Origin: Actinobacteria bacterium casp-actino2
Lineage (GTDB): Bacteria; Actinomycetota; Acidimicrobiia; Acidimicrobiales; Ilumatobacteraceae
Reading direction: 5' to 3'
Assembly (NCBI GenBank): GCA_001510335.1
Contig: LFFB01000004.1
Coordinates: 1-34,791 of the forward strand
Length of the DNA stretch: 34,791 nucleotides
Below the pieces are notes generated by a model. The model saw nothing but the letters and a program-made list of their open reading frames with translations, was not told the origin of the DNA and made no database searches. The translations under genes were made by a program, and so were the position numbers. Shown one piece after another: positions 5,615 through 34,791 of the stretch (positions are counted from its first letter, which is position 1; each line of letters opens with the position of its first letter).

Positions 5615-5682
5615 GAACAGACCGTAGTTCGTGCGAGTCGTTGGCGCTCAAGAGTGGGCCAAGAGTTGTTTCATGTCAGGTG

Positions 5683-5718: not shown

Positions 5719-6741
5719 ATGATGAACCTCAACAAACTTCATAACCTCGCCATTCGGCCCATTGTCGGTGCCCTCGCCTCGGTAGCCGTGGTTGCTTGTG
5801 GCGGTGGAGAACCATCAACGTCGCCAGATCGTCCGAGTGTGGTCGTGACGTACTCGATTTTGGGAGCCGTCGTGAGTGACGTTGTTGGCGACGCCGCTGA
5901 CGTCGTTGTCTTGATGCCGAACGGAATCGACCCGCATGAATGGGAACCGTCGGCGAAAGATATTGAGTTACTGAATAACGCTGACCTGATTGTGAGCAAT
6001 GGGCTTGATCTTGAGGGCAATGTGATGGAGGCGATTGAAGCTGCAGAGAAAGACGGGGTCGCTGTCTTTCACGCCACCGATCACATTGAGGTCATTGAAT
6101 TCGGCGCCGGTGGAGATGTTCACGGGGATGAGGAACCCCATGCCGAAGACGAGGTAGTGACGGCTGATTCAGTTGTCACTACCGAAGCAAAAGCCGAAGA
6201 TGAGCACGGTGATGAGCACGGTGATGAGCACGCTGACGGAGACCCACATTTCTGGACGAGTCCAGTCGAAATGGCCGCTGTCGTTGAAGCGTTGGGTGTG
6301 GCGTTGGCTGATATTGGTATTGATACAGGTGATCGTGCTGCAATGACCAAAGAATCATTGTTGAATACTGATCAAGAAGTTCGAGATCTCATCGCAGATA
6401 TTCCTGCAGAGTCGCGAATTTTGGTCACTGGTCACGAATCACTTGGATACTTCGCTCACGAATATGAATTTGAAGTCGTTGGAGCTGTCATTCCCTCATT
6501 TTCGAGCGAGGCCGAAGCTTCGGCCGGAGATCTTGCCACACTCAAGGAGACCATCGCAGATGAAGGCGTCAGCGTCATCTTCACCGAGATGGGGACATCC
6601 CCTGATGTTGTTGAGGCTTTGGCTGCCGAAGCCAAAGTGTCGGTGGTTGAGTTGTCCACGCACTTTTTGCCTGAAGACGGCACCTATAAAACGTTCATCT
6701 TGCAGTTGGCGTCCATGATTTCAGTAGCTCTACAAACCTAA
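5719..6741 (+). CDS. znuA: zinc ABC transporter substrate-binding lipoprotein (ZnuA-like)
   Basis: A high-affinity metal-binding protein of the cluster 9 (ZnuA/TroA) family, lipid-anchored outside the membrane. The start at 5719 gives 340 residues, a hydrophobic signal peptide and a lipobox ending VVAC with Cys27. An upstream extension to 5641 would read through the operator and is unlikely. Mature landmarks are DPHEWEPSAKDIELLNNAD with the first ligand His, an Asp/Glu/His-rich loop typical of zinc rather than manganese carriers, DPHFW, TGHESLGYFA and IFTEMGTSPD. The loop is partly coded by three 12-bp tandem units at 6199-6234. Permease and ATPase genes follow directly. Confidence 0.93.
   Translation: MMNLNKLHNLAIRPIVGALASVAVVACGGGEPSTSPDRPSVVVTYSILGAVVSDVVGDAADVVVLMPNGIDPHEWEPSAKDIELLNNADLIVSNGLDLEGNVMEAIEAAEKDGVAVFHATDHIEVIEFGAGGDVHGDEEPHAEDEVVTADSVVTTEAKAEDEHGDEHGDEHADGDPHFWTSPVEMAAVVEALGVALADIGIDTGDRAAMTKESLLNTDQEVRDLIADIPAESRILVTGHESLGYFAHEYEFEVVGAVIPSFSSEAEASAGDLATLKETIADEGVSVIFTEMGTSPDVVEALAAEAKVSVVELSTHFLPEDGTYKTFILQLASMISVALQT
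6199..6234 (+). repeat. 12-bp tandem repeat inside the His-rich loop
   Basis: Three head-to-tail units of GATGAGCACGGT (6199-6210, 6211-6222, 6223-6234; the last has one change) encode Asp-Glu-His-Gly/Ala repeats in the zinc-binding protein. Such units can change copy number by slippage and so alter loop length and histidine count. Confidence 0.9.
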
Positions 6742-31429: not shown

Positions 31430-32656
31430 TCAGTCTTTGGAGTCGATTGACACGGCGAGTTCGTATTGATCGCTCACTGAGCTATCAAGACCAACTGGAG
31501 TTGCATCGTCGCCAAACCAGAAACGCAATTGAGCGGTCACCGCGTGTTTGATGATGGGGAAGCCAAATTCAACTGGCCCGGCGGGTGGAATGCAGCCATC
31601 TTCGCCGAGAGCCCTGAGTGGCCCAAATCCTTCCAAGAAGGATTCCAACCCTGAAGCGATTGCGACCCCGATGATTCCAGTGCCATTGCCAAAAGTACAA
31701 AAGTCGGTAAAGCCGTTGTGTCCCATTTCGTCAATGATCCATAGACGACTGGGTCCTGGAACAGCCTCAAATGAAGGACGAGTTGATTCTTCGGCAGAGA
31801 TGATTGCGTCAAGAGCACCAGCGATAAAGAACGAGGGCTTGTCGGGCAATGTTCTGGCGGTGCTCGGCTCGCTCGTCATGCCCAGGGCACCGGAGGCGAG
31901 TGAGATATAGCCGTCGATGCGATCGTCAAAAGCGGCGCTAAGAATGGTTCCTCCACCGGCTGAATGGCCTACGGCGGCAACCCGTGAAGTGTCAATATGT
32001 TGACTGAGTGGCGAGGTCGGACTGCTGCTTCCATTAAACAATAAGTCAAGGGCGCCCAGTAAATCGCCGTCAGCTAAATTCCGGTCTTCGGCGACTCGAC
32101 TGAGAAGGCTTATAAGGTTTCGTGACCGGTGTTCGGGTGCAGCGACGATCATGCCCCAACTTGCCAGATGTGAAGTGAGGAACGTGCTTTGAAATCTGAA
32201 ACCAAATGCACCATGACTGAATAACACGACGGGAAAAGCCCCGTTGGCTACTTTGGCATCTCGCCCAGCCTCATATTCGTAAACCACGGGGACATTAGAG
32301 GTGAGAATTGCGACAACTGCTTCAGGAATGAAGTCACGCATGTCGTAACTGTCGGTACCCATTGTGCCTTCCACTGCGGGATACCAGACTTCGACTTCGT
32401 TGCCCGCTGCAAGTTCAAGTGTTGTGACTCCGACGGGGTACGGGCCGGCTGCGGTGTACATCATTGCTTCGACTGCTGGATCAAGAGTTGCGGCTGGCGC
32501 TTCGGTCGCTGGGGCTGCGTTGGTCGGAGCTTCTGTCGTTAACGACTCGGTCGTTGGTGCGACAGATGCGGTCGACGCTGAGTCATTTTCTCCACAAGCA
32601 GAGAGGGCGATGGCGGCGAGCAGGGATGAGATAAGCATGCAGTGACGCATTGACAT
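31430..32656 (-). CDS. secreted lipoprotein alpha/beta hydrolase (PAF-acetylhydrolase-like)
   Basis: This 408-residue protein has a lipoprotein signal peptide ending LSAC (Cys at about residue 21), then a Thr/Ala/Glu-rich linker (about 22-60) and a hydrolase domain. The nucleophile elbow is GHSAGGGTI, the acid probably in GALDAIISAEES, and the histidine in DEMGHNGF. The opening VWYPAVEG, VLFSHGAFG and oxyanion region resemble platelet-activating-factor acetylhydrolase, chlorophyllase and cutinase-like lipases. It probably hydrolyses esters at the cell surface; the substrate is unknown. It is transcribed in the same direction as the amidohydrolase downstream (39 nt gap). Confidence 0.87.
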   Translation of the reverse strand: MSMRHCMLISSLLAAIALSACGENDSASTASVAPTTESLTTEAPTNAAPATEAPAATLDPAVEAMMYTAAGPYPVGVTTLELAAGNEVEVWYPAVEGTMGTDSYDMRDFIPEAVVAILTSNVPVVYEYEAGRDAKVANGAFPVVLFSHGAFGFRFQSTFLTSHLASWGMIVAAPEHRSRNLISLLSRVAEDRNLADGDLLGALDLLFNGSSSPTSPLSQHIDTSRVAAVGHSAGGGTILSAAFDDRIDGYISLASGALGMTSEPSTARTLPDKPSFFIAGALDAIISAEESTRPSFEAVPGPSRLWIIDEMGHNGFTDFCTFGNGTGIIGVAIASGLESFLEGFGPLRALGEDGCIPPAGPVEFGFPIIKHAVTAQLRFWFGDDATPVGLDSSVSDQYELAVSIDSKD

Positions 32657-32755
32657 GGATTAAGTATCACAGGTAGGAGAGGTAGGGGTGAACGAAGAAA
32701 GGTTGGGTCCACCTGGACAAGCCGGGAATGCTCGATCGCAGGTAGGCTGACTACT

Positions 32756-32777
32756 CCGATTTGGTTCGCCAAATCGG
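32756..32777 (+). other. hairpin in the 5' leader of tRNA-Cys
   Basis: CCGATTTGG-TTCG-CCAAATCGG is a perfect 9-bp stem with a TTCG tetraloop that ends 2 nt before the tRNA. A TAGGCT -10-like hexamer (32742-32747) lies just before it, so the hairpin may be the first structure of the precursor tRNA. There is no T run, so a terminator is unlikely. Confidence 0.6.
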
Positions 32778-32779
32778 TT

Positions 32780-32851
32780 GGCGACGTGGCCGAGTGGTTT
32801 AGGCAAGGGCCTGCAAAGCCCTGTACCTGGGTTCGATTCCCAGCGTCGCCT
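32780..32851 (+). tRNA. tRNA-Cys (GCA)
   Basis: Acceptor GGCGACG (32780-32786) pairs with CGTCGCC (32844-32850), with discriminator T at 32851. The anticodon arm GGGCCTGCAAAGCCC gives GCA. The T arm is CTGGGTTCGATTCCCAG. No CCA is encoded. The 3' part, from 32831 on, is duplicated at 33928-33950, so the gene seems to serve as an integration site and remains intact after insertion. Confidence 0.95.
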
Positions 32852-32853
32852 CT
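32831..32853 (+). repeat. attachment-site-like direct repeat, proximal copy (tRNA-Cys 3' end)
   Basis: This 23-nt sequence starts GTTCGATTCCCAG, covers the T loop to the acceptor end of tRNA-Cys plus two bases, and is identical to 33928-33950. Allowing one mismatch it extends to 32826 (28 nt). Such copies of a tRNA 3' end mark the borders of integrated elements made by tyrosine recombinases. Confidence 0.85.
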
Positions 32854-33217
32854 AGTTTTTGCTGGCCTTATGAGGGTGGTGGCACTTCGATGGCACTTAG
32901 TTCTGCGTATCTGAGTGATTGCACCTACGCTCTGTCGGAAGATGTGATAACTGCTGCCACTCAGTAAACGTCAGCGAGCCTAAGGGTCTTTTCAACATGA
33001 CTAAGCCATCAAGCAAGGCATTCATTCGTTGACTTGTGGCTTCGTAACGGTGGCAGTGAAGTCGACCTAGCGCGACTGGCGGTTGGAGCGGGACCGCTAA
33101 GGTCGGGGAGTTAGGCACACCATCGTGCTGCGGAACGGACACTCACGGCCCACCCTGTGGTTTCACGGTTAGACCGATTGTGAACTCGCTTCTTCTAACA
33201 TCGCTAGTCTTAGAGAA
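32854..33217. other. 364-nt islet left end without a convincing gene
   Basis: No ORF here has recognisable protein features. An 81-codon minus-strand frame (32897-33142) lacks a family match and a good ribosome site. The only structure seen is a pair of TGGCACTT direct repeats at 32880-32887 and 32891-32898, 11 bp apart (one helical turn), close to the left attachment copy. A weak promoter-like TAGTCT (33205-33210) lies 7 nt before the pentapeptide gene. The region may be a decayed remnant of the element's recombination genes (inference). Confidence 0.5.
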
Positions 33218-33706
33218 ATGATTGTCAACGGCCACAAAATTGAACCGAACGCAGACCTAGTTGGCGCAAAACTGATTGGCGCTGACCTTCATGGTGCAAA
33301 CCTGATTGGCGCAAAACTGACTAGGGCAGATCTGACTGGGGCAAACCTGACTGGTGCAGACCTGAGTCATGCAAACCTGCAAGGCGTTGGCTTGTCTGGT
33401 GCAAATCTGACTGGTGTAAAATTGCATTACGTAAACCTTCGTGGCGCAGACCTGACGGGGGCAAACCTGTCTGCCGCAGACCTGTTTGGCACGGACTTGA
33501 TTGACGCAAACCTGACTGACGCAAACCTGACTGAGGCAAACCTGACTAGGGCAAGGATATATGCAGCAGACCTGTCTCATGCAAACCTGACTGACGCAAA
33601 CTTGAATGACGCAAACTTGACTGACGCAAAACGGCTTGGCGCAAAACGGCTTGGCGCAAACCTGTTTGGTGTAATCCGAAGAGTCTTGCAAACCTTGAAC
33701 CGTTGA
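33218..33706 (+). CDS. pentapeptide-repeat protein
   Basis: A 162-residue protein with about 26 consecutive A(D/N)LxX pentapeptides from about residue 12 (NADLVGAKLIGADLHGANL) to about 150. This predicts a right-handed quadrilateral beta-helix of about six to seven coils. The N-terminal cap is MIVNGHKIEP. Family members include DNA-mimic gyrase protectors such as MfpA and Qnr, but most have no known role and none is assigned here. The DNA shows 15-bp near-repeats based on GCAAACCTGACTG. The last 11 residues (VIRRVLQTLNR) are unlike the repeats and lie in a region that codes better in another frame. Confidence 0.88.
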   Translation: MIVNGHKIEPNADLVGAKLIGADLHGANLIGAKLTRADLTGANLTGADLSHANLQGVGLSGANLTGVKLHYVNLRGADLTGANLSAADLFGTDLIDANLTDANLTEANLTRARIYAADLSHANLTDANLNDANLTDAKRLGAKRLGANLFGVIRRVLQTLNR

Positions 33707-33801
33707 CACCAAGAGAAGTCGGCAACGCCTTAGAAAAGGAAGCCGCTAGGCGAAAAGTGACAGTAGGTCAAGTCATGCGTGAAAGGTTGGCAAAAGCATG
33801 A
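33703..33801 (+). CDS. RHH-like micro-ORF or gene fragment
   Basis: In a different frame from the pentapeptide gene, TTG 33703 to TGA 33799-33801 encodes 32 residues, starting LTPREVGNALEKEAARRK and ending VGQVMRERLAKA. The strand-helix-helix layout with VTVGQVMRERL looks like the end of a ribbon-helix-helix antitoxin or regulator. The frame is open further upstream (NPKSLANLEP from about 33671) but without a good start, so the original N-terminus may have been lost where the pentapeptide gene ends. Its stop overlaps the next ATG (ATGA), an operon-like junction. Confidence 0.4.
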   Translation: MTPREVGNALEKEAARRKVTVGQVMRERLAKA

Positions 33802-34079
33802 TTGTCAACGGCCACAAAATTGAGCCGAACGCAAACCTGTCTGGCGAAATTGTCGGCTACGACCTTTTCAGTAAAGACTTGTCCGGTGTAAACCTGACTG
33901 GTGCAAACCTGTCTGGTGCAATCCTGAGTTCGATTCCCAGCGTCGCCTCTCTTTTGAGGTTTGAGATTTGGTTGTTATTTCAGAGGCAATCGTGGCAGAA
34001 GATTTCGTCCACTTTTGCGACGCAATCGGGACAGACCAGCGTTCGGCGGCGGCACAACAGATCCGAACAATTGTGGTAA
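33798..34079 (+). pseudogene. pentapeptide-repeat gene truncated at the distal attachment copy
   Basis: The first 10 residues (MIVNGHKIEP) are identical to the gene at 33218, and the DNA start is nearly identical over about 40 nt. Pentapeptides (NANLSGEIVGYDL, LSGVNLTGANLSGAIL) run to about 33926, where the reading frame enters the tRNA-Cys copy (33928-33950) and then the antisense strand of trhO. The codons after that point (SSIPSVASLL onward) are not repeat-like. The gene therefore seems cut by the recombination event, with a chance tail of about 50 residues. Confidence 0.7.
33928..33950 (+). repeat. attachment-site-like direct repeat, distal copy
   Basis: This is identical over 23 nt to the tRNA-Cys 3' end at 32831-32853. 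It lies 30 nt from the stop of the convergent trhO gene and inside the reading frame of the truncated pentapeptide gene. It lacks the 5' part of the tRNA and so is not a second tRNA gene. Confidence 0.85.
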
Positions 34080-34791
34080 TCGCTCGTCGGAGATGAACAC
34101 ATGTGACACGAGCTCAAGACTTTGGTCTCGGGGCTGTAATCCAACTTAAAACGACGATCGAAGACGTATAGCGAACCTTCCCACAATCCGCCATCTTTGA
34201 ACTTCTCGGCATACCGAACGATGCCTCCATCGATTTGGTACACCTCTTTGAAGCCACGGTGCTTCATGATGAGCGATAAAACTTCGCAACGAATTCCGCC
34301 GGTGCAGTAGGTGATGATCGGTTTGTCTTTGAGATGGTCGTAAGCCCCGCTCTCGAGAACCTGAACAAATTCTGGAGTTGTCTCAATCGGGGGAACAACG
34401 GCATTCTTAAATTTGCCAATGGCTGCTTCGTATTCATTACGGCCATCAAAGAAGACCACGTCGTCGCCACGCGATGCGACAAGTTCATTGACTTCGGCCG
34501 GAGACAGGTGAATACCTCCTCCAACGATGCCGTTTTCATCGACAACAATTTCTTCAGGAACACCAAAGGTAACGATCTCGTCGCGCACGCGAACCTGCAA
34601 ACGAGGGAACTCGTCGCCATGCCCTTCGGACCACTTGTATTCCATGTCTTTGAATGGAGCGAAATCTTTCATGACTCGGATGTAGCGCTTGACCTGATTG
34701 AGGGTTCCGCCCACGGTTCCGTTGATCCCATCTTTCGAGATCAGGATCCGCCCCTTGAGGTCGTTGGCCTCGCACAGTGTGCGCTGCCACA
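33980..34791 (-). CDS. trhO: tRNA uridine(34) hydroxylase, rhodanese-like (5' truncated)
   Basis: The frame is open to the window edge, so 270 codons of the C-terminal part are present. The N-terminal part shows [28 protein letters not shown], the typical TrhO (YceA/UPF0176) fold. The rhodanese domain has FFDGRNEYE and the active-site loop YCTGGIRCE with the catalytic cysteine. The tail carries [21 protein letters not shown] and CHDC, a zinc-ribbon-like Cys-rich end common in the family. TrhO makes 5-hydroxyuridine at tRNA wobble position 34. A GTG at 34714 inside the frame is not the start. Confidence 0.92.

Follow-up and report, generated by a model that had tools for sequence, protein, structure and literature searches.

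A 1.1-kb islet with a decayed integrase gene at the 3′ end of tRNA-Cys in an Ilumatobacteraceae genome

CIMEs are described, as far as the cited text goes, as decayed ICEs or IMEs that carry no integration genes and keep attL and attR (PMC5704250). The islet described here resembles them in keeping attL and attR after the loss of its integration genes, in this case at the 3′ end of a tRNA gene, and differs from the CIMEs of that text in having no known transfer gene or conjugative parent. A second comparison is offered by the tDNA islands found by Islander, which, in the cited part of its description, rejects candidates that lack an integrase ORF or are under 2 kb (PMC4383910). Like those islands, the islet combines an intact tRNA with a displaced 3′ fragment in the same orientation, and its target is restored; unlike them, at 1.1 kb it fails both the integrase-ORF and the 2-kb filters (PMC4383910). 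Because of these two filters, as that part states them, integrase-less islets of less than 2 kb are outside the reach of Islander.

The ssrA islands of Dehalococcoides carry an integration module in many cases, not all (16 islands with it, by the portion of the report cited), and are likewise bounded by direct repeats taken from the 3′ terminus of a small-RNA gene (PMC3146451). They differ from the islet, in the features that portion gives, by their tmRNA target, serine recombinase and other cargo (PMC3146451). In freshwater Methylophilaceae, an additive island is marked by repeats of a tRNA-Lys end, and tycheposons use a tyrosine recombinase and are given as 4–200 kb (PMC10872708). The islet shares tRNA-bounded cargo with these elements, a likeness of description only, and its size is below the 4–200 kb range.

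Layout of the islet and its empty site

The window (the whole stretch of 34,791 nucleotides that was analysed) is a contig of a metagenome-assembled genome (MAG). ARAGORN placed an intact tRNA-Cys(GCA) at 32780–32852 on the plus strand, and its 3′ end forms the proximal, attL-side repeat of 23 nt, which reaches from the T-loop to just past the discriminator base (32831–32853, plus strand). The same 23 nt recur exactly at 33928–33950 (plus strand; attR side), with a repeat-to-repeat distance of 1,097 bp, and the arrangement is the intact tRNA plus displaced same-orientation fragment of a tDNA island. Direct comparison of the repeats bore out what an earlier note on this DNA had read from them, with one mismatch over 28 nt (32826–32853 against 33923–33950); extension to 33 nt gave a 91% match. 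The only other exact direct repeats of at least 18 nt in the window, inverted repeats being left out of this count, were a short tandem near 6200 and repeats within the pentapeptide ORFs or from one of these ORFs to another. Since the 23-nt repeat is near-unique by this measure, chance is a negligible explanation for it. The islet is not marked by composition, since its G+C content is 51.5% vs 52.3% for the window. Ten stretches with the tRNA-Cys 23-mer were found in actinobacterial MAGs, including Ilumatobacteraceae, Acidimicrobiaceae and acIV, which we take to be freshwater lineages, and a search of viral contigs for the exact 23-mer returned 0 stretches.

From left to right, the islet consists of a spacer with no match in 24 genus genomes (32854–33006), the decayed 3′ end of a tyrosine integrase gene (33007–33183, plus strand), and two pentapeptide-repeat ORFs. 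ORF1 (33218–33706, plus strand) encodes a protein of 162 aa with the N-terminus MIVNGHKIEPNADL and matches PF00805 at E 6.6e-41. A 32-aa ORF without a Pfam match (33703–33801, plus strand) overlaps ORF1 at its 3′ end as well as the start of the ORF that follows, and may be the end of ORF1 itself after a frameshift. The second pentapeptide ORF (33798–33927, plus strand; PF00805, E 3.5e-5) runs into the distal repeat, and its first 52 nt are 88% identical to the start of ORF1; it is a truncated copy cut by the distal repeat. The pentapeptide-repeat genes that had been reported inside the islet are thus present by Pfam, the second of them as a truncated ORF rather than a whole gene. The right neighbour, in the window as at the empty site, is a trhO-like rhodanese gene on the minus strand (33980–34714; PF12368, PF00581), given here as the longest listed ORF from a start codon, with a frame that continues to the contig end.

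A close trhO (75–100% identity) was found in 7 of the 24 genus genomes searched. In one of them, G007, only 30 bp separate tRNA-Cys from trhO, and this empty site breaks exactly at the repeat, as at tDNA islands. When 32854–33950 was removed from the window, the remainder aligned with G007 without a gap across the join, and the flanks were syntenic with that genome (29507–31780 at 83%, 32115–32853 at 68% and 33923–34791 at 84%). A second adjacency was present in an acIV bin (BJGC01000002.1), with tRNA-Cys and trhO about 20 bp apart and a trhO that is 63% identical. We conclude that the islet is a true and precise insertion at the 3′ end of tRNA-Cys. The earlier note had proposed this site on the basis of the repeats and of a compact tRNA-Cys/trhO junction left by removal and had looked to relatives for the absence of 32854–33950; G007 supplies both the real junction and the absence, and the acIV adjacency agrees with the site.

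The same interval holds other sequence elsewhere in the genus. G004 and G008 (loci L006 and L007) carry a different pentapeptide gene, on the minus strand and without the distal repeat, and the opposite strand and the absent repeat rule it out as the same insertion. The tRNA-Cys/trhO interval can therefore gain pentapeptide genes by other routes. In G020 (L063, G020:C18), the exact 23-nt tRNA-Cys end lies around 5635–5657, 3.3 kb from trhO, and bounds a different element, with an HNH endonuclease gene just inside it, on the far side of the tRNA-Cys fragment and before the contig end. G022 (L066, G022:C87) has a degenerate tRNA-Cys fragment recognized by eye. The edges of these two elements at tRNA-Cys also look alike by eye. 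Other cargo at the same site, as the earlier note had suggested looking for, is thus supported in part, by an exact fragment in G020 and by eye in G022. In G014 the contig stops short of the junction, which brings the seven trhO genomes to one with the islet, one empty, two with the other gene, two with the edge of another element (one by eye) and one unreadable.

The whole islet is found in 1 of the 24 genus genomes. Nine other genus genomes gave partial matches to tRNA ends and pentapeptide stretches, and, in G018, to an integrase. At 12 loci of other genomes, no distal tRNA-Cys copy was found in the same orientation at up to 4 mismatches; the downstream sequence available was at most 406 bp in two of them, 3.5 kb in one and 15–19 kb in the rest. 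In G013 (L003, G013:C2, 1–303) and G003 (L005, G003:C9), a frame ends just downstream of tRNA-Cys where the contigs end. By eye and by a sequence motif, these frame ends look like integrase C-termini; the 60-aa piece from G013 has no match in Pfam.

An integrase pseudogene and its relatives

The view that the islet holds no recombinase did not survive. The stretch 33006–33187 matches the 3′ end of the G018 tyrosine integrase gene with 74% DNA identity and an alignment score of 122 vs a maximum of 30 over 200 shuffles. By tblastn, it corresponds to residues 221–278 of the 278 residues of the G018 integrase (63.8%, E 1.9e-18), and its identity to other relatives is 57% for G217 and 53% for G015. 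The remnant retains HQ.RH and the terminal SRLDRL-stop, its frame is shifted between two one-base indels, and a stop stands at the position of the residue taken to be the catalytic tyrosine of tyrosine recombinases. The stretch 33007–33183 is therefore an integrase pseudogene. No intact tyrosine integrase lies within the islet, where only the decayed last 58 codons and the stop are left. In G018, the intact protein is assigned to PF00589 (E 1.1e-24) and to PHROG 1, integrase. Because just 153 bp lie between the tRNA and codon 221, the integrase gene would be missing about 0.5 kb or more. No arm-type sites were identified.

Four close relatives of the G018 integrase, 62–100% identical to it, were found in 200 family genomes searched. 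In G015 (L142, G015:C97, 5268–11593), two identical 92-bp repeats lie 6,234 bp apart, and a complete tRNA-Glu(CTC) is contained in each. Between them lie the integrase and a C5 cytosine methylase (PF00145), together with an overlapping or adjacent ORF that has no Pfam match and may be a partner nuclease. G018 has a 2,810-bp island with 81-bp repeats (98%) beside tRNA-Glu, and in G165 the start of an integrase lies beside tRNA-Glu at a contig end. These three integrases are on the 5′ side of tRNA-Glu, and ARAGORN found no tRNA at the integrase locus of G217. The G015 and G018 islands are like the islet in integrase family and small size, and differ from it in their tRNA-Glu site, their 81–92 bp repeats, a complete integrase frame and other cargo. 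No relative among the four was found at tRNA-Cys, and tRNA-Cys as the target of this integrase is for that reason an inference; with three of the four at tRNA-Glu, either there was a change of target or the insertion was the work of another integrase. A phage origin of the integrase was considered and not supported, as a viral scan with only two peptide patterns gave two loci at 24–25% identity.

The closest parallel in gene order came from G217. There, an ORF starts with MEVNGYTIEPGANL 36 bp after the integrase stop and enters pentapeptide repeats until the contig end; in the islet, 34 bp separate the remnant stop from the start of ORF1. Order and spacing agree, and both N-termini are of the xVNGxxIEPxAxL type. 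Since a VNGxxIEP start is common in the pentapeptide genes of the family, also where no integrase is seen, the parallel rests on order and spacing.

In the islet's own genome, which is 68% complete, PF00589 genes were found at two places, next to a NUDIX-like gene and between a dprA-like and a sigma-factor gene; these gene names are our own reading. No tRNA was found within about 1.5 kb of either, and by their length, their neighbours and the lack of a nearby tRNA they look like XerC and XerD. No helper integrase was visible in this genome, a third of which is missing. A search of it with the G018 protein gave three matches (best E 3.2e-17, positions not listed), and the third may be the islet remnant.

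Pentapeptide-repeat genes beside tRNAs in the family

The position of PENTAPEPTIDE genes relative to tRNAs was examined in 20 stretches that were hand-picked from ORF1-similar matches and are not random. A tRNA lay within 1.5 kb of a pentapeptide ORF at nine of these 20 loci (L146, L150, L152, L153, L155, L156, L158, L159 and L162) vs 1 of 30 control PF00583 loci (Fisher p 0.0005). Leaving out two previously seen loci, G164 with a tRNA and G156:C69 without one, gave 8 of 18 (p 0.0008). Among the 12 loci taken from the ORF1 similarity search itself, one was the window and four others had a tRNA (L108, L109, L111 and L112). The contrast was weaker for the best PF00805 matches, with 7 of 30 near a tRNA including the window, or 6 of 29 without it, vs 1 of 30 controls (p 0.052). 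When pentapeptide clusters were delimited by eye in G033, G113 and G008, 4 of the 14 were at most 1 kb from a tRNA; with 131 tRNAs in 8.4 Mb, about 3% would be expected (binomial p 0.0007–0.001). This count is a lead rather than a test, since the tRNA-linked cases of G033 and G008 were already known. Pentapeptide genes thus seem to be enriched beside tRNAs in Ilumatobacteraceae, in samples that were non-random.

One hand-picked locus is a second integrase-less islet, at tRNA-Lys. In G214 (L159, G214:C377, 2751–4394), the last 28 nt of tRNA-Lys are repeated exactly 1,568 bp downstream, and two pentapeptide ORFs lie between the repeats. A search of this second islet for an integrase remnant gave no match with E below 1, and the other hand-picked loci checked had no second copy of at least 14 nt of their own tRNA region. 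At six of 30 tRNA-Lys loci of the G214 genus, the methyltransferase gene known from downstream of the G214 repeat has other sequence in front of it, which makes the place variable; no strict empty site for the G214 islet was seen among the 30. Pentapeptide sequence also stands right after tRNA-Lys, with no repeated tRNA end, in G164 (L238) and, by eye, in G113 (L245).

A broader proposal would be that the pentapeptide genes of Ilumatobacteraceae are recurrent cargo of tiny integrase-less tRNA islets, which spread by means of integrases from elements that share their tRNA sites and escape finders whose filters ask for an integrase and 2 kb, with the window and G214 islets as examples. We regard it as unlikely. 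A literature search joining Ilumatobacteraceae and pentapeptide found no paper.

Origin and meaning of the islet

The islet is very probably the remnant of a small, CIME-like integrative element at tRNA-Cys that lost its own integrase. As for descent from an ICE or IME, the integrase remnant is present and the gene order matches that of G217; no complete parent was found at tRNA-Cys. A circular element would have entered tRNA-Cys at its 3′ end through the action of a tyrosine integrase, an act to which the repeats and the empty site point; the tRNA would have stayed whole, with a 23-nt duplicate of its terminus beyond the element. In the ancestral element, the integrase gene presumably stood directly before a pentapeptide gene that had the VNGxxIEP start, the order that the islet and G217 share. 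Later, the integrase gene would have lost most of its length, with the rest decaying into the frameshifts and stop now present. The outcome would be a non-autonomous stretch of cargo, flanked by a pair of att-like repeats and expected to stay in place as long as no related integrase acts upon it.

The earlier note had raised the possibility of satellites moved in trans. On that reading, the islet would be a living satellite that retains both att sites and depends on another element's integrase for its excision and insertion. The two 23-nt repeats are indeed still identical, other elements of the genus are bounded by tRNA-Cys (G020, and G022 by eye), and G214 has a second integrase-less pentapeptide islet, at tRNA-Lys. 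However, the decayed integrase explains the missing one more simply, the two PF00589 genes of the 68% complete genome look like XerC and XerD, and the sequences just inside the islet ends are, by eye, unlike those of G020, G022, G013 and G003. The proximal repeat also lies within the tRNA gene, and selection on the tRNA would hold that side constant whether the islet moves or not. We consider a satellite of this kind quite improbable.

The tRNA fragment and the islet might instead have arrived without site-specific integration, for example by illegitimate recombination or gene conversion that brought along a tRNA-Cys end, a reading for which G004 and G008 speak, where the interval holds a different pentapeptide gene and no distal repeat. 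The exact fit of the repeat, the empty site and the integrase remnant together form a signature of tRNA integration, as the cited part of the Islander description has it (PMC4383910), and make such a route very improbable. An assembly artefact joining two places is barely credible, even in a MAG contig and with the G013, G003, G023 and G020 contigs ending within 0.6 kb of tRNA-Cys sequence, as synteny with G007 holds on either side of the islet and its contents agree with the G217 gene order.

As the remnant of an integrative element, the islet is most likely a decayed representative of a known kind, with an integrase family and a gene order known from relatives. It illustrates, for a freshwater lineage, how tRNA islets can come to look free of an integrase; surveys that demand an integrase and 2 kb skip such remnants. 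If the link between pentapeptide genes and tRNAs holds true in an unbiased count, the abundance and patchiness of these genes in the family would become testable as cargo of small tRNA-bounded elements.
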